Assembly (NCBI GenBank): GCA_023250585.1
Contig: JAHFAK010000005.1
Location: forward strand, 23,123-42,953
Reading direction: 5' to 3'
DNA length: 19,831 nucleotides
Source: Deltaproteobacteria bacterium
GTDB taxonomy: Bacteria > Bdellovibrionota_F > JAHFAK01
The notes beneath the pieces are model-generated. The model was given only the letters and a program-made list of their open reading frames with translations. It did no database searches and was not told where the DNA came from. Of this stretch, positions 10,592 through 19,250 are shown piece by piece. How positions within the stretch are numbered: position 1 is the stretch's first letter; each line of letters starts with the position of its first letter. The translations under genes and the position numbers were made by a program.

Positions 10592-11347
10592 TTACTGAAC
10601 AACAGGAATAACAAAGCATTTAAAATCATCAATATGGCATGTTCCTTCGGCACATCCAAATCCAACTTCTATACGGCTTGGAAGATTAACACCGTCAATT
10701 GAAGTAAGAAAAGGAACATTACCAAGATACTGAGGTTCTGAACCAACTGGGCCGTTTGCGGTTGTTTTGAGGTATGCTTCTTCATTAAAATAAATATCCA
10801 TAAATAAATATACATCAGCATAGTGTAATATTTTGTCTTCATTTTTGCCATGAAAAACCGGTAGTGCATTGGGGTCCCTTGTCCATATAAAACACTGGAG
10901 ACTTCCATTGAGAAGTACATTTTGAATATGAGTGCTTTGTTCAGAAGGAATAATGACCTGGTTAAAGCGAACAGCATTTGAGAAACATTCCGAGTCATTG
11001 ACATTACAATTTGATTGACTGCTTGTTACCTTAAATACAAGGTCGTTTTTCTTTTGGGTATCATTGGAGTAGGCGTAATCAGCAGTTCCATTGATTAAGG
11101 GCCAGCCTACGAAATTTAATTCTTTGTCATACCCTTCATTCGCATCCCAATTAAGTATAGTTAATTGAGGGAAATGAGCCTCATAGCTCTTTATTGTAGC
11201 CGTCTGAATCGGTACTAGGCGATGATTTAATCTCGCGAAAACATCAACGTCTCTGCAATTACCGGTTTGTGAATAAGCTTGCGCTTTACTCAAACTCCCC
11301 AAAAGTGCTAGTACAATACTCAAGTAACTGAATAATTTCTTACCCAT
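10592..11347 (-). CDS. Secreted Cys-containing protein, unknown function
   Basis: 251 residues with a clear Sec signal peptide (MGKKLFSYLSIVLALLGSLSKAQA, cleavage after AQA near 24). The mature part has seven cysteines (GNCRD, SNCN, SECF, LQCF, GCAEGTC, FKCF), implying disulfides. It is also rich in Asn, Asp and aromatic residues, like beta-rich extracellular proteins. No catalytic motif or family recognised. The start is backed by AGGAG 6 nt upstream. A sigma-54-type promoter sits about 110 nt upstream and a perfect 8-bp inverted repeat a further 113 nt beyond it, in the zone where enhancer-binding proteins act. It is probably transcribed alone. Confidence 0.75.
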   Translation of the reverse strand: MGKKLFSYLSIVLALLGSLSKAQAYSQTGNCRDVDVFARLNHRLVPIQTATIKSYEAHFPQLTILNWDANEGYDKELNFVGWPLINGTADYAYSNDTQKKNDLVFKVTSSQSNCNVNDSECFSNAVRFNQVIIPSEQSTHIQNVLLNGSLQCFIWTRDPNALPVFHGKNEDKILHYADVYLFMDIYFNEEAYLKTTANGPVGSEPQYLGNVPFLTSIDGVNLPSRIEVGFGCAEGTCHIDDFKCFVIPVVQ

Positions 11348-13327: not shown

Positions 13328-14620
13328 TTATTGTCTTATCCCGATAAACCATAGTTCATGAAGATCTAAGAGTTTATTGAGTTTCTCTTTAATTCTTGGT
13401 TCTACCTGAGGGAGATATTCTTTGAATTCTTTTCTTAAGAGAGCTCCGGTTATTGTTGTTTTAGAGTACAGTAAATACTGTATTTGATTTTGCGCTTCTT
13501 TTTCATTACCCTGAACCAATAGATCTACAATATGAGCTACGAAGATGGTTGAGAGAGCTTGAGGGCGGGTACGAGCATCTCCATGTATAACACTTTCTTC
13601 AAATTTTTTATACGACATCGTTTTTTCAGCGAAATATCGAAAACGATCTTGTGTTATAATTTCTAGAATAGCCACGGTTTCAGGAGCTCTCGTTGATTGA
13701 TATTGCTCTTCATTAAGTATATCAAGCTGTTTAATCATAGCATACGCAAATCGTCGCTTAAGTTCTTTGAATGATAATCGTGTAAGGGGATTAATATCGT
13801 TATACATTGGGTTTTCATTGGAGAGTTCTAATATGTCCAAGCGGATTTCGCTTGCGTGAGCTAGATCAGCAAATATATTAAGTTGTAAATCATCATCGGC
13901 ATATCGAAGAGCTAAATTAAAAAGAAGAGGATCTTTTCCATATAGATGTTTTTTTACAATATCCTTGTGTGCCTTTGCCATAAATCGAGCTTTATTTTCG
14001 AGGAACGTCGAAGAAAGGTTTTCATAAATAGTGGGAATAGTGTCTAGATATGCTTTCATTACACTAAACCCTTCTTTGTGATCTAAAAGCAGTGTACTTA
14101 TGTCAAATATAATATGGAAATCCTTTTCTTTATCTAAAAAATCAATGAGTTTTTGAGAATTATGCTCTTCTTCCATATATTTTATTACTACTGCAGATGC
14201 TATTGACAGAGGAGCTCCATCAACATCCTTCATGAGTTCATACCGTTTTCTTTGTGGTAACTCGAGAGCACGTTCGCCAAAATAATTTTGCATTTTATTT
14301 TTCTTCTGATCACCTTTTTCCATTTTCAGTACTATATTCAATGATTGTTTTATTTCGTTTATTTTTTCAGTGGTATCGAGTACCATTTCCTTTCCTTTTT
14401 TTGCAGACATTATTTCGAGTAATTCATCAACAAAAGCCTTATAATCTTTCACACTATTAGTCTTCATAATAAAGTTGAGTACAGTGTGGAGGGCTTGATT
14501 TGTATTATCAAAAATTCCTCCACAACCCTTACCTTTACGGCTCATAGCTTCTGTATGGACTGAAATTATTGATAAGAAAACTACAAAATTTATAATGATT
14601 ATGAGAATACGTAATTTCAT
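13328..14620 (-). CDS. Secreted helical protein, unknown function
   Basis: 430 residues. An N-terminal hydrophobic segment (about 4-20, followed by HTEAMS) reads as a Sec signal peptide. The mature part is strongly helical and charged, with repeated leucine-rich helices reminiscent of alpha-solenoids, such as FDISTLLLDHKEGFSVMKAY and RLSFKELKRRFAYAMIKQ. No family or catalytic motif recognised. There is one early Cys-Gly-Gly (KGCGGIF) and otherwise almost no Cys. AAGG lies 5 nt before ATG14620, and a sigma-54-type promoter lies about 53 nt upstream. A MITE-like repeat sits immediately beyond that promoter, so any enhancer sites would be separated from it. Convergent with the AAA ATPase gene. 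Confidence 0.75.
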   Translation of the reverse strand: MKLRILIIIINFVVFLSIISVHTEAMSRKGKGCGGIFDNTNQALHTVLNFIMKTNSVKDYKAFVDELLEIMSAKKGKEMVLDTTEKINEIKQSLNIVLKMEKGDQKKNKMQNYFGERALELPQRKRYELMKDVDGAPLSIASAVVIKYMEEEHNSQKLIDFLDKEKDFHIIFDISTLLLDHKEGFSVMKAYLDTIPTIYENLSSTFLENKARFMAKAHKDIVKKHLYGKDPLLFNLALRYADDDLQLNIFADLAHASEIRLDILELSNENPMYNDINPLTRLSFKELKRRFAYAMIKQLDILNEEQYQSTRAPETVAILEIITQDRFRYFAEKTMSYKKFEESVIHGDARTRPQALSTIFVAHIVDLLVQGNEKEAQNQIQYLLYSKTTITGALLRKEFKEYLPQVEPRIKEKLNKLLDLHELWFIGIRQ

Positions 14621-14710: not shown

Positions 14711-14834
14711 ATACTAAGTTGCATTCAAACGCTAACTGCGTTGGCTTCGTCGTCGGCTCCTCAACGTACTATTACGTACGTTTGCGTCGCCTTCTCCTTG
14801 CCGCCTTGTTATCATTTTGAATGCAATTTAGTAT
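14711..14834. repeat. MITE-like repeat with terminal inverted repeats (family A)
   Basis: 19-nt ends, 14711-14729 and 14816-14834, are reverse complements with one mismatch (ATACTAAGTTGCATTCAAA). The 86-nt centre is more GC-rich than its surroundings and shares GCATTCAAACGCTAACT, CGTTGGCTTCGTC and GCTCCTC with 7779-7847. No ORF. It lies 22 nt upstream of the sigma-54 site at 14673-14688. The remainder of the 14621-14974 gap holds that promoter and a gene fragment. Confidence 0.7.
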
Positions 14835-14843
14835 AAATAAATC

Positions 14844-14978
14844 GTGAAAATACACAAAAAATATATAAATATTCACGATGATATGGACAAAATCGTGAGT
14901 GAAGTTCATCGACAAACCATTGATGCTTTTTTAGAAAAAGGCGTATGGAAAATAGGGGTGGAGAAATCACCTCTTTAA
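14844..14978 (+). pseudogene. C-terminal gene fragment next to the repeat
   Basis: A short open frame of 44 residues from GTG14844 or 31 from ATG14883. It has protein-like composition (MDKIVSEVHRQTIDAFLEKG, then VWKIGVEKSPL) and reaches a TAA at 14976-14978. It abuts the right end of the family-A repeat, as if the upstream part was lost at the insertion. No ribosome site and no family recognised. It overlaps the stop of the convergent protease gene by 4 nt. It could also be a chance ORF. Confidence 0.3.
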
Positions 14979-16204
14979 GGAATCAAAATAGTTACGGGTA
15001 TTTCATGAACAAATGTCATTTCAGTAGTATCTTTCATACGTACAAAGGTGAGCTTGACTGAATCGACACTCTCGGGAAGTGTTCGCCACCACGTTACACT
15101 TATTTTGTGTATACTTACTCCATTAATATATATGAGGTGATCCCCAATTTGTATATCAAATAGTTCTGCTTTTGTTTCTGGAATAATATCATGAACAATC
15201 CATGAATCAGGGTATTTATCGAATGCAATACCAAACGTTCGTAATGGTGGAATAGAAATGGATGCGCAGGAGTCATCACCAAAATGAACAAGATTATTTT
15301 TTTGATCAAAAGTAAGAACGAAATTCTTAATCACATGGCCCCCCATAATTCCCCAAGGTTCAGTAGTGGGTATCAAGCTAACAAGAGGTGATGTAATACG
15401 AAAATTACCTAATGTAACATCTTCTTTAACACGGCCCTGCAATTGATGAGGAATTTCTCCGCTTATAGTTACCATTGAGAAACTATCAATTGGCCCTTGA
15501 GAGAATGTAAGGTATGATCCATAGCTAAATGGAATTCTAAAATATCCTGAATTGCCTGAGTCAATGATGATTGGAATCAGGGTTCCATCAAAAAATACAT
15601 TAATTATTGGAATCCCTTCATTGGGATCATAGGGAAGAATATTTTCACTCATTGTTCGATCTAAGTTTCCTGTAATGAGTTCTAACTTTTGTTGGGGATA
15701 ATCGATCTTTAAGAGATAATCTTTAAAGAATTGAAACCCTAGAATACCATGAAGTGGTTTGCCTATAATTTTTGAAAATTGTTCCAAATCCATTGTAATT
15801 CCATCAATATTTTGAAAATTAAAATCATTGATATCTAAAGAAGCAATTTTGAAGAGAGACGCTTCTCTACTGGAATTCGAATAAGGATTGGTAATCACCA
15901 TAGTTTCAGTATGTTGTATAGAAAGTTCTTTGAAAAGAGAATCAGAGAGAACGATGCCTACGTTTACTCCTGTATCGACCAAAAACGTGTAGGGGCCTTT
16001 GTTATTTATTGTTACTTCTGCGAGAGGAGTTGCATCCATTAACTCTACTGGAATTGAGAAAACAATTTTTGATGTTCTTTGAGAAATTTCTTGTGAATGT
16101 TTTACTGCCGCTTCATTTATTTTTTCGCTACTGATTGCAAAATTAATCAATAGAAGCGGTATGAGTAGAGTAAGTAGTATAAAGAAGTATTGTTTCATTT
16201 TCAT
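14975..16204 (-). CDS. Exported aspartyl protease with C-terminal PDZ domain
   Basis: 409 residues. A signal peptide or anchor (about 4-25, MKMKQYFFILLTLLIPLLLI) precedes two retropepsin/pepsin-like lobes. Lobe 1 has FLVDTG (DTG 77-79) and the later GILGFQFFKDY; lobe 2 has IIIDSG (DSG 215-217) and GIMGGHVIKNF. Both catalytic aspartates are thus present in one chain. A PDZ domain follows (about 322-405: GIAFDK, then AELFDIQIGDHLIYINGVS). It is likely a periplasmic or outer-membrane-associated protease that uses the PDZ to choose substrates. It is last of four closely spaced exported-protein genes, 34 nt after its neighbour. AAGG sits about 13 nt before ATG16204, further than ideal; an ATG at 16198 is an alternative. 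Confidence 0.85.
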   Translation of the reverse strand: MKMKQYFFILLTLLIPLLLINFAISSEKINEAAVKHSQEISQRTSKIVFSIPVELMDATPLAEVTINNKGPYTFLVDTGVNVGIVLSDSLFKELSIQHTETMVITNPYSNSSREASLFKIASLDINDFNFQNIDGITMDLEQFSKIIGKPLHGILGFQFFKDYLLKIDYPQQKLELITGNLDRTMSENILPYDPNEGIPIINVFFDGTLIPIIIDSGNSGYFRIPFSYGSYLTFSQGPIDSFSMVTISGEIPHQLQGRVKEDVTLGNFRITSPLVSLIPTTEPWGIMGGHVIKNFVLTFDQKNNLVHFGDDSCASISIPPLRTFGIAFDKYPDSWIVHDIIPETKAELFDIQIGDHLIYINGVSIHKISVTWWRTLPESVDSVKLTFVRMKDTTEMTFVHEIPVTILIP

Positions 16205-16238
16205 GTATAGTATGTACCTTGCGGTTCGATTTTATTGC

Positions 16239-17228
16239 CTATTGATAGATTTGAAACCAGCGATCAAATAACTCAATAAAGTCTTCTGCTGTTGCTATAT
16301 CCTTACCGAGAATAAGGCATAACGAGTTTGATCGTGAGTCTAATTTTTTCCATAATTCGCAGTTATTAGTCGTAACTATTCCGATTGGAATATTGAGTTC
16401 GTGTTTCCAATATAATAAAGTTCCCATGTCTCCTCCCATGATATCATCTTCTTTCCTATTTTCTGGTTCTGTTATATAAAGAACGCTTGCAATATTCTTT
16501 TTTCCAAGAAAGCTTTCTATAAAGCCGAGATTGTGTATCGGATTATATCCAACGGGAGAAGGAGCCGCAAATACAATATTTGCCTCGATCCAATCGCTGA
16601 TAGATCTATTTCCATCTATAGGTAAATGATCTAAATCTTCACTTCTTAAAACTTCGGTTATTGACGAGTCTTTTTGTATAATAAGAAGACTTATTGGTAT
16701 CAATAATCGATTATGATCCGCTAGAATATTTTTCAATTTTGAGAACCACTGTATTAATGCATTTTTAGGAGTATTTCCGCTATATGCTCCCCGAGGACCT
16801 TGTATTACAGTATTAAGAGCTTCTGAATTACCTATGACAATGACTGCTCGTTTTCCACTTACGATGCCGTGAGATTTGTTTCTGAGCATAAAAACAATAG
16901 TGTTGTTGTCTTTGATTATTCCAGGCTCACAGTAGCTTAATTCAGTGCTATCGTTCACTACGACTTTTGCAAAACTCATTGCAGAAGCTTTGAGCTCTTG
17001 AACGGATGCTCTCGTGTACGGTCGCCAAGGTTGATTATTGAAGTTACTATTTTTTTCACAGGCTTCTTTGCTTTTAAAAATATAGAATCGAGAAAATCGA
17101 TCAAAAGCTAAGCTTTCAGTATTTTTACGAAGTTCTACCTCAACAGTATAGAGCCGATCTCCTGCAGAAATAGTGCCTGCGCAGATGCAAAGAATAAAGA
17201 GGAAAAAGGGAATATATAATCGTTTCAT
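16239..17228 (-). CDS. Exported protein, possibly a vWA-like fold with degenerate metal site
   Basis: 329 residues with a clear signal peptide (MKRLYIPFFLFILCICAGTISAG, cleavage near 22). No confident family. By eye the part after about 125 follows a von Willebrand A pattern: KRAVIVIGNSEAL at strand 1, helix LIQWFSKLKNIL, strand PISLLII, a later helix-strand IESFLGKKNIASVLYITEPEN (compare xxLITDGE), then HELNIPIGIVTTNN (compare GIPIYTIGVG). The MIDAS DxSxS would be GNSEA, so metal binding is probably lost. A few cysteines are present (ACEK, YCEP, NCEL, LCLI). It starts 3 nt after the preceding gene, with GGTGA as its ribosome site inside that gene's end, so it is translationally coupled. The fold call is inference. 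Confidence 0.7.
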   Translation of the reverse strand: MKRLYIPFFLFILCICAGTISAGDRLYTVEVELRKNTESLAFDRFSRFYIFKSKEACEKNSNFNNQPWRPYTRASVQELKASAMSFAKVVVNDSTELSYCEPGIIKDNNTIVFMLRNKSHGIVSGKRAVIVIGNSEALNTVIQGPRGAYSGNTPKNALIQWFSKLKNILADHNRLLIPISLLIIQKDSSITEVLRSEDLDHLPIDGNRSISDWIEANIVFAAPSPVGYNPIHNLGFIESFLGKKNIASVLYITEPENRKEDDIMGGDMGTLLYWKHELNIPIGIVTTNNCELWKKLDSRSNSLCLILGKDIATAEDFIELFDRWFQIYQ

Positions 17229-17231
17229 AGT

Positions 17232-18089
17232 TCACCATGTAATGAGAGACTGTAACGTAGTCGCTTGGTCTTTAGTTACAATAGGTAGGCATGCCTTAAG
17301 AGCTTTGTTTATAGATTTGAGCTCTCCAGAATATTTTACCCATGACGCAATCTCTTTTGGCAGCTCTTTTTTTCTTTCTTCTTCAGTAAGCGGAGCTTCT
17401 TCGATGTGTTTAATCTTTAGTTGTATATCTTTTACTTTCGATTCGTTAGATGTATTGAGTATAGCTCGTTCGATTTCAAAAACTGCATGCCGAGAACTTT
17501 TTACTGAATGAATAATTTTATCCTTCAAACCATTAATGCTTTCCCTGAGTTTGATAAATATTTCGTTCATAATAGAATCTTCCAATGTTTTCGTCCACGG
17601 TGTAATTTTGGCAGTCCTCAATAGTAATTCAGAAAATTCATCTCCTAGGTGTTGATAGGCTGGAGACGAAGGAGGAGGCTCATTCAAAAAAAACGTTGTT
17701 ACAGAAATATTAAATTTTTGAAGATCCTTGTTGTACACCAATGAAAGTAATATCTGAGAATTAGTCTCATCTAATGTTACGATAACATCTTTTTCACTTT
17801 CATCGAGAAAATTTGCTTCTAATGAAAAGAGAGCTTTTCGTGCAAGAATAATAAGCGTATCATCAAATGCTGTATGAATTTCATAGAGCCTTGTATTATC
17901 ATCTCCGGAATAGTCATTTTCCTTATTGTCAGTAAAGGGATCAAAAATGTCCAATTCTTTAAGGTCCTTATTAAACAAACATTTGGTTATATTTTTATAA
18001 TCATTTCTTGGTTCTTCTTCGGCATAGATGTTTCCCAAAACTAATGCGCTCAAAAAGATAGTTGCGATAACGGTTTTTATTATCTTCAT
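17232..18089 (-). CDS. Exported protein, unknown function
   Basis: 285 residues from ATG18089. GGAGGG lies 6-7 nt upstream, whereas a longer frame from 18146 would overlap the previous gene and lacks a ribosome site. The signal peptide is MKIIKTVIATIFLSALVLGN followed by IYA, cleaved near 23. An acidic N-terminal part with two Cys (KCLF, and KACLP near the end) surrounds a predicted alpha/beta middle (LLSLVYNKDLQKFNISVTTF). The C-terminal half is helical and coiled-coil-like (about 165-270). No motif recognised. Second gene of the four-gene exported cluster, with 16 nt before it and 3 nt after it. Confidence 0.75.
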   Translation of the reverse strand: MKIIKTVIATIFLSALVLGNIYAEEEPRNDYKNITKCLFNKDLKELDIFDPFTDNKENDYSGDDNTRLYEIHTAFDDTLIILARKALFSLEANFLDESEKDVIVTLDETNSQILLSLVYNKDLQKFNISVTTFFLNEPPPSSPAYQHLGDEFSELLLRTAKITPWTKTLEDSIMNEIFIKLRESINGLKDKIIHSVKSSRHAVFEIERAILNTSNESKVKDIQLKIKHIEEAPLTEEERKKELPKEIASWVKYSGELKSINKALKACLPIVTKDQATTLQSLITW

Positions 18090-18105
18090 TATAATCCCTC
18101 CATGG

Positions 18106-19119
18106 TTATCTATTTTTCTCCCCAACCCAATGAAAAGGTAAAACACTCCATATTGACCATAAATCTTTGGTCCATTGTTCTACATTTTCTGCAGTAACGT
18201 TTATTTGAAATAAAATATTATTATATAGTTTCTGATTAGATTTAAATGTTTCCAATCCAAGAATCAGAACTAAATCTTGATTAAGTTTACCAAGTTCCCA
18301 ACTTGTGGTAACAGCATCATTGTTTCCATATTTATCCGCAAGATAACTTATCTTTTCTGCTGCTTCTTTAAATTCGATAGTCATTGGATTGAGAAAATTC
18401 TTTGTATAGTGGGAAGCATTGGGATGTACCTTTTCATTTTTTACTTCTCCAAATATGAATGGTGGCTTTGAGATAATAGCGATTTCATTCCCGGCGCCTA
18501 TATTTATCATATCGGTTAGGGCTTTTGTAGTTATCCTGTTGAGGATCCAACCTACTATTGAAGCTTGATAGGGATATTCCAGAAGGTTCATAAAATCATT
18601 GCCATATAATTGTTTCATCTCCAAAGCAGTAAGCGTATGATGAGGATCAACTATAACATGCATAGGAACATTGATATAGTCAGAACAGCCCGATTCCGGG
18701 AGATCTATTAGAAAAGTTATTTGATAAGGAAATGGGTACATTTTTATCTTAAAACGAGCAGGTACTTTAACCTTCTTATGGAATTCAATATGATGAACAG
18801 CACACTGAGCATTTAAAGCACGAAGCTTTTCAACATCTTTATTGTGAAGCATTACCATGAGTTCTTGAACAAAAGGAATTTCTTCTCCCGTTGGACATTC
18901 TACGCCAGTAAAAGTCGAAAGACTTTTAATCGAAGCAAGAATCTGTAAATACTCATCGACCTTTCCTATGTTTGGGTCAAGAAAACGAGGATCATGGTTT
19001 ACATACGTTTGTACTTCTCTACATTTTGTTTGTTGAGATTGTTGAGATGCCAAACTTGCATAGGGAATAATCAAAATTACAAAGAAAAACAATAATAATC
19101 TTTTATTATTTTTTTTCAT
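18106..19119 (-). CDS. Exported protein, unknown function, first gene of the cluster
   Basis: 337 residues from ATG19119, because AGG sits 6 nt upstream; an ATG four codons earlier (19131) has no ribosome site. The signal peptide is MKKNNKRLLLFFFVILIIPYASLAS. The mature part has TKCREVQ, GVECPTGEE, NAQCAVHH and SGCSDY (four Cys, possibly two disulfides). A beta-rich stretch (FKIKMYPFPYQITFLIDLP) is followed by a largely helical second half ending FHWVGEKNR. No family recognised. It is preceded by a sigma-70-type promoter (19163-19191) that probably drives all four genes down to the aspartyl protease. Spacing to the next gene is 16 nt. Confidence 0.75.
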   Translation of the reverse strand: MKKNNKRLLLFFFVILIIPYASLASQQSQQTKCREVQTYVNHDPRFLDPNIGKVDEYLQILASIKSLSTFTGVECPTGEEIPFVQELMVMLHNKDVEKLRALNAQCAVHHIEFHKKVKVPARFKIKMYPFPYQITFLIDLPESGCSDYINVPMHVIVDPHHTLTALEMKQLYGNDFMNLLEYPYQASIVGWILNRITTKALTDMINIGAGNEIAIISKPPFIFGEVKNEKVHPNASHYTKNFLNPMTIEFKEAAEKISYLADKYGNNDAVTTSWELGKLNQDLVLILGLETFKSNQKLYNNILFQINVTAENVEQWTKDLWSIWSVLPFHWVGEKNR

Positions 19120-19191: not shown

Positions 19192-19207
19192 TATTTATTA
19201 TAAAGTC

Positions 19208-19250
19208 TGTCCAGCCAAAAGAGATATGATATTTCTCTTTTGGCTGGACA
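19208..19250. repeat. Perfect 17-bp inverted repeat (hairpin)
   Basis: TGTCCAGCCAAAAGAGA (19208-19224) and TCTCTTTTGGCTGGACA (19234-19250) are exact reverse complements around a 9-nt loop. There is no T-run on either side, so it is not a normal intrinsic terminator. It may be a mobile-element end or a palindromic repeat; it lies just upstream of the exported-cluster promoter. Confidence 0.65.

Follow-up and report, generated by a model that had tools for sequence, protein, structure and literature searches.

Do four adjacent genes for putatively exported proteins, the last of which encodes an aspartyl protease with a PDZ domain, form one periplasmic or secreted machine, or are they unrelated envelope genes that happen to share a directon? 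This question is raised by a compact gene cluster on the minus strand of the window, i.e. the whole stretch of 19,831 nucleotides that was analysed. An initial annotation of this DNA had proposed the former, with the protease processing or controlling its partners.

Layout of the cluster and predicted export of its products

The four genes, here referred to as A to D, are as follows:

18106..19119, minus strand: gene A, first gene of the cluster, encoding a putatively exported orphan protein of 337 aa
17232..18089, minus strand: gene B, encoding a putatively exported orphan protein of 285 aa
16239..17228, minus strand: gene C, encoding a putatively exported protein of 329 aa with an N-terminal beta-rich region and a degenerate vWA domain
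14975..16204, minus strand: gene D, encoding a putatively exported bilobal clan-AA aspartyl protease of 409 aa with a putative C-terminal PDZ

All four genes are co-directional, with starts at 19119 (A), 18089 (B), 17228 (C) and 16204 (D). The open reading frames and their gaps of 16 nt (A-B), 3 nt (B-C) and 34 nt (C-D) were exactly as the initial annotation had described them, and codon usage was of the coding type. Specifically, the log-odds per codon amounted to 0.10, 0.09, 0.08 and 0.12 for A, B, C and D in the called frames, whereas the other five frames gave values from −0.27 to −0.77, such that only the called frame was positive. Shine-Dalgarno-like sequences are good for A (GAGG) and B (GGAGG-type) and weaker for C and D. 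D lies 34 nt behind C and has a weak ribosome-binding site, and its expression may thus be partly independent. Consensus scans for promoters and terminators at the operon gave no signal above the shuffled expectation. The cluster is flanked upstream by a divergent gene (19178 onwards) and downstream by a gap of ∼350 nt that contains a dispersed repeat, and its GC content is 34%, compared to 35% for the window. A mobile-element origin was considered and rejected: searches of phage records with A and B and of plasmid records with A and C gave no match, and the GC content resembles that of the window.

The claim that all four genes encode signal peptides also held, in that the N-termini are Sec-like on reading and by a crude scorer. 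By these means, putative signal peptides were found to end at ASLAS/QQ in A, IYA/EE in B and ISA/GD in C, while D starts with a long hydrophobic stretch ending at AIS/SE. To place this in context, the crude scorer was applied to ∼220 kb of the same genome, a non-random sample consisting of contigs brought in by earlier matches, where ∼36% of 169 ORFs looked exported. When the labels were shuffled over the observed directons, a within-operon exported run of at least four genes was obtained in 919 of 5000 shuffles (∼18%). The exported run was not clearly beyond chance and, because such runs are frequent in this genome, shared export is here weak evidence for a common function.

Several other elements were observed around the cluster. 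The next gene downstream on the same strand (13328-14620) encodes an exported-looking protein lacking a significant Pfam match, and the same applies to the same-strand gene at 10592-11347. The dispersed repeat of ∼125 bp (14711-14834) is located between the operon and the next exported-looking gene. Copies that are ∼96-97% identical are present on the same contig (C159:1008-1132 and C159:14252-14363), with a partial copy near C159:30901. The space between the divergent genes upstream of the operon holds a near-perfect inverted repeat (19203-19250; GTCCAGCCAAAAGAG...CTCTTTTGGCTGGACAC), and a very long intergenic inverted repeat occurs elsewhere in the same genome (L010:2790-2905; GAGTAGGCATGTTGCAAAAAAGTATTCCTATCGA...).

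A protease of known architecture and a degenerate vWA protein

Gene D had been annotated as a two-motif aspartyl protease with a PDZ domain, and the following features are relevant here:

15974..15976, minus strand: codon of the predicted catalytic Asp77 (DTG, lobe 1; alignment A2)
15560..15562, minus strand: codon of the predicted catalytic Asp215 (DSG, lobe 2; alignment A2)
15095..15232, minus strand: putative PDZ region, approximately residues 325-370 (PF00595, E 0.012, sub-threshold)

The D protein matches PF13650 (Asp_protease_2) above the cutoff with an E value of 3e-12. Both D(T/S)G motifs that define the bilobal (pepsin-like) members of clan AA are present, namely D77TG and D215SG, and each lobe contains a hydrophobic-hydrophobic-Gly motif (ILG156 and IMG288). 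In alignment A2, which consists of D and relatives from other genomes across phyla, the residues D77, G79, G156, D215, G217 and G288 are invariant. The PF00595 score of 16.4 bits for the PDZ remained below the gathering cutoff of 23.2, but a D-family profile showed that the corresponding region of the relatives matches the PDZ domains of DegP/DegQ. The closest structural relative of D by sequence is 9iy9, a solved exported two-lobe protein (profile match E 1e-15). Relatives at E 1e-8 or better were detected in 8 of 240 other genomes and, at those loci that were read, they are encoded alone or in other contexts, several of them with an extra N-terminal domain. Judged from its sequence, D is thus a member of a known protease architecture. 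Clan-AA matches to the Pfam family number seven in the 2.2-Mb genome, including D (L011-L017), the other six being short single-domain ORFs of 133-151 codons. A role of D in anti-phage defence was discarded, as the only hint of it, a weak PADLOC match (E 0.0016) between D and a candidate model resembling clan AA, is attributable to the protease fold.

According to the initial annotation, A, B and C lack recognisable families. This was correct insofar as none of them has a Pfam or NCBIfam match, the best Pfam matches (NDUFB11 for C, RNR_N for A and DUF5398 for B) being at chance level with E values of 0.09-0.5. For C, however, structural modelling was informative:

16242..16859, minus strand: predicted vWA-fold domain of C, residues 124-329 (AlphaFold2 with Foldseek and VIA-align)

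The AlphaFold2 model, built from three sequences, is of modest confidence (pLDDT 59). The top Foldseek and VIA-align matches of residues 124-329 were all vWA domains, with Z values of up to 12.4 over ∼160-190 residues, while the best Z is typically 7-8 for models without a clear match. The C-terminal half of C is therefore predicted to have the vWA alpha/beta fold. It resembles the vWA domains of NorD (9qhg), VWF A1, TFIIH p34/p44 and Ku in overall alpha/beta fold (Z 10-12), but the identity is only ∼10% and the metal-site motif is lost. Instead of an intact MIDAS (DxSxS, T, D), C has GNSEA (133-137), YNP and ITEP (252-255), as assigned by reading the alignments. This loss would place C in the pseudo-MIDAS type, as is the case for several eukaryotic vWA scaffolds.

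The same genome encodes two paralogs of C (L003 and L004), neither of which is near A, B or D. One is located behind a repetitive exported-looking ORF (L003) and the other 154 nt behind an ORF read as nuoN (L004). In the C paralog seen at L036:182-3419, the N-terminal beta domain is duplicated, and the ORF overlaps by ∼40 nt the end of an ORF for a repetitive, beta-helix-like, exported-looking protein of 651 aa. A profile search of 386 genomes revealed one further homolog, in the candidate division KSB3 bacterium DOLJORAL78_50_49 (G236). This 691-aa exported protein, P0007, shares 29% identity with C over 260 aa (E 1e-27), the matching part being the C-terminal 270 residues, and reads ENSQG, FQP and LTDS at the MIDAS positions when assigned in the same way. 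Two pattern scans with C across 84,980 genomes retrieved only the KSB3 record; they relied on a few short peptides, such that most distant relatives could be missed. Regardless of whether the four genes cooperate, C serves to define a small and so far undescribed family of predicted exported vWA proteins that have lost the metal site. This family is common to two deep lineages of which few members have been sequenced.

Two orphan proteins, the KSB3 locus and gene co-occurrence

A search of 241 genomes, among them the set's single relative at class level, yielded no homolog of A or B at E 0.001, and neither protein belongs to a family in PADLOC or PHROGs at a significant level. Weak matches of A within its own genome fell in frames with stops, and that of B (L010, E 0.003) was a short unrelated ORF, such that both were dismissed. 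A single-sequence model of A was uninformative (pLDDT 38). One stretch of A did draw attention:

18868..18900, minus strand: residues 74-84 of A, ECPTGEEIPFV, a motif also found at the C-terminus of TssR-like proteins of KSB3

The KSB3 proteins in question are encoded next to the C homolog. At L045:8253-14375 (PDSJ01000025.1), P0007 is followed by the related exported proteins P0005 and P0006. P0005 (814 aa) has an SH3-like start, a vWA domain with DGTKS and a three-part layout, while P0006 (474 aa) is P0005-like but devoid of the vWA insert. Further on, the locus encodes a Lol/FtsX-type ABC transporter and an EACC1-type caspase, and a formylglycine-enzyme-like gene is located upstream; no T6SS genes were seen nearby. 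TssR, of the membrane complex of Bacteroidota type VI secretion, is likewise a three-part protein with an inserted vWA domain (PMC10781749), and P0005 has a weak TssR_VWA match that is below the cutoff (E 0.035). The motif of A was matched to P0005 by BLASTP (E 0.008, 7 of 11 residues identical) and by hhalign (P 0.0029 over 14 columns), with the consensus (E/Q)CP(T/S)GE(E/A)IPF(V/I). Being too short for a claim of homology, this match is suggestive only, and it serves as a lead because the motif-bearing KSB3 vWA protein adjoins the C homolog. None of the proteins A to D matched the TssR models, and a search of the window's genome, which was run without a positive control, found no P0005-like protein.

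The test named in advance for a common function was whether the four genes are found together across genomes. Outside this cluster they never were: in all data searched, A-B-C-D occurred together once. The three other instances of C, i.e. the two paralogs and the KSB3 homolog, are not beside A, B or D, the D relatives in the eight other genomes are not beside A, B or C, and the only class-level relative in the set has none of the four. As relatives of A and B were not detectable, the result reads as lineage-specific rather than as unlinked, and with a single class-level relative in the set it is weak as a refutation. The converse expectation, that each gene would belong to an unrelated known family, applied to D with its known architecture and, by its vWA fold, to C, but not to A and B.

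Possible functions of the cluster and comparison with known systems

The explanation that we tentatively prefer, at somewhat less than even confidence, is that a diderm bacterium carries a lineage-specific operon whose four products reside in the cell envelope or are secreted. These products are best read as an ordinary periplasmic protease, a vWA protein of the pseudo-MIDAS type and two exported orphans, and the compact set is probably co-transcribed. The tight spacing and the coding frames count in favour of this operon, as do the PF13650 match, the conserved motifs and the 9iy9 profile match for D, and, for C, the vWA fold plus the further exported homolog that adjoins another vWA protein in KSB3. 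Against it count the lack of co-occurrence, the frequent exported runs, the C paralogs outside an operon context, the D-type relatives that stand alone, the distance of D from C with its weak ribosome-binding site, and the pLDDT of the C model. It is nearly as likely that unrelated envelope genes became coincidental neighbours in a short directon of a genome rich in exported genes, with co-expression as their only common task. The proportion of exported-looking ORFs and the outcome of the shuffles agree with such a coincidence, and so does the occurrence of C paralogs and D relatives without the other partners. On the other hand, the 3-nt and 16-nt gaps in A-B-C suggest translational coupling, and the set is clearly bounded by the divergent gene upstream and the repeat-bearing gap downstream.

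More specific functions appear considerably less probable. We regard it as unlikely that D processes at least one of the other three proteins into its mature form via PDZ recognition of the C-terminus. The active-site motifs, the putative PDZ, the shared export and the operon would be in keeping with such processing, and the hydrophobic C-terminus of B (...SLITW) can be read as a possible PDZ ligand, but no cleavage site or pro-region is evident, the four-gene set is on record from a single genome, and the paralogs of C are maintained with no PDZ protease encoded nearby. It is highly improbable that the cluster encodes a reduced TssR-like vWA envelope assembly, with A equivalent to the C-terminal part and C equivalent to the partner vWA protein, as encoded side by side in the KSB3 locus. 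The succession of P0007, P0005 and P0006, the TssR-like layout of P0005 and the motif CPxGExIPF common to A and P0005 point in this direction. However, the match of A spans 11-14 residues and is non-significant at database scale, the TssR match of P0005 is below the cutoff, and a P0005-like protein was not found in the window's genome. Least probable of all is a so far undescribed complex of the periplasm, where the PDZ-aspartyl protease would gate or mature C, as a pseudo-MIDAS vWA scaffold, along with two lineage-specific proteins, and where C and A would be the reduced counterpart of the uncharacterised KSB3 TssR-like vWA assembly. Altogether, the cluster is real, while there is no evidence that it forms a new machine which also occurs in other bacteria; a single machine whose protease controls the other members may exist, but found no support here.

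In the preferred lineage-specific operon, A to D would be co-transcribed and exported by Sec. D would fold on itself into a pepsin-like pseudo-dimer that, as predicted from its motifs, is catalytically active, and its PDZ would dock the exposed C-termini of envelope proteins. C may bind a partner via a vWA domain that has become independent of metal, and D could trim or turn over envelope or surface proteins, possibly including A, B or C.

Among known systems, D and the PDZ-type bilobal proteases (two copies of Pfam Asp_protease_2 plus PDZ), as well as 9iy9 ('Exported protein'), are alike in their signal peptide (putative in D), two lobes, D(T/S)G and hydrophobic-hydrophobic-Gly motifs. A C-terminal PDZ is predicted in D and present in several relatives but not in 9iy9, whereas D lacks the extra N-terminal domain of 9iy9, L019, L020 and L023. 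The identity between D and the related exported bilobal proteases is 22-28%, and D differs in sharing its operon with A, B and C. The likeness to TssR exists only through the three-part KSB3 protein P0005 with its vWA insert, with which A shares an 11-residue motif; no TssR-like gene was found in the window's genome. A parallel for the gene arrangement is the rlo operon of P. aeruginosa, in which an exported clan-AA protease is likewise encoded beside uncharacterised envelope partners. There, suppressor genetics placed the exported retropepsin RloA in one process with RloB and RloC, which are encoded in its operon (PMC12239564), a precedent that makes a partnership of D with its neighbours plausible. 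The two systems nevertheless differ, since RloA is a single-lobe homodimer without a PDZ, while D has two lobes and a putative PDZ. Furthermore, RloB is a membrane-embedded inactive transglutaminase and RloC a cytosolic ATP-grasp protein, whereas A, B and C carry putative signal peptides and have no transglutaminase or ATP-grasp family match in Pfam or NCBIfam, and homologs of A, B or C are not named in the rlo operon paper (PMC12239564). If the four proteins do act together, an aspartyl protease system under PDZ control would be added to the small number of exported retropepsin systems of bacteria whose partners are known.
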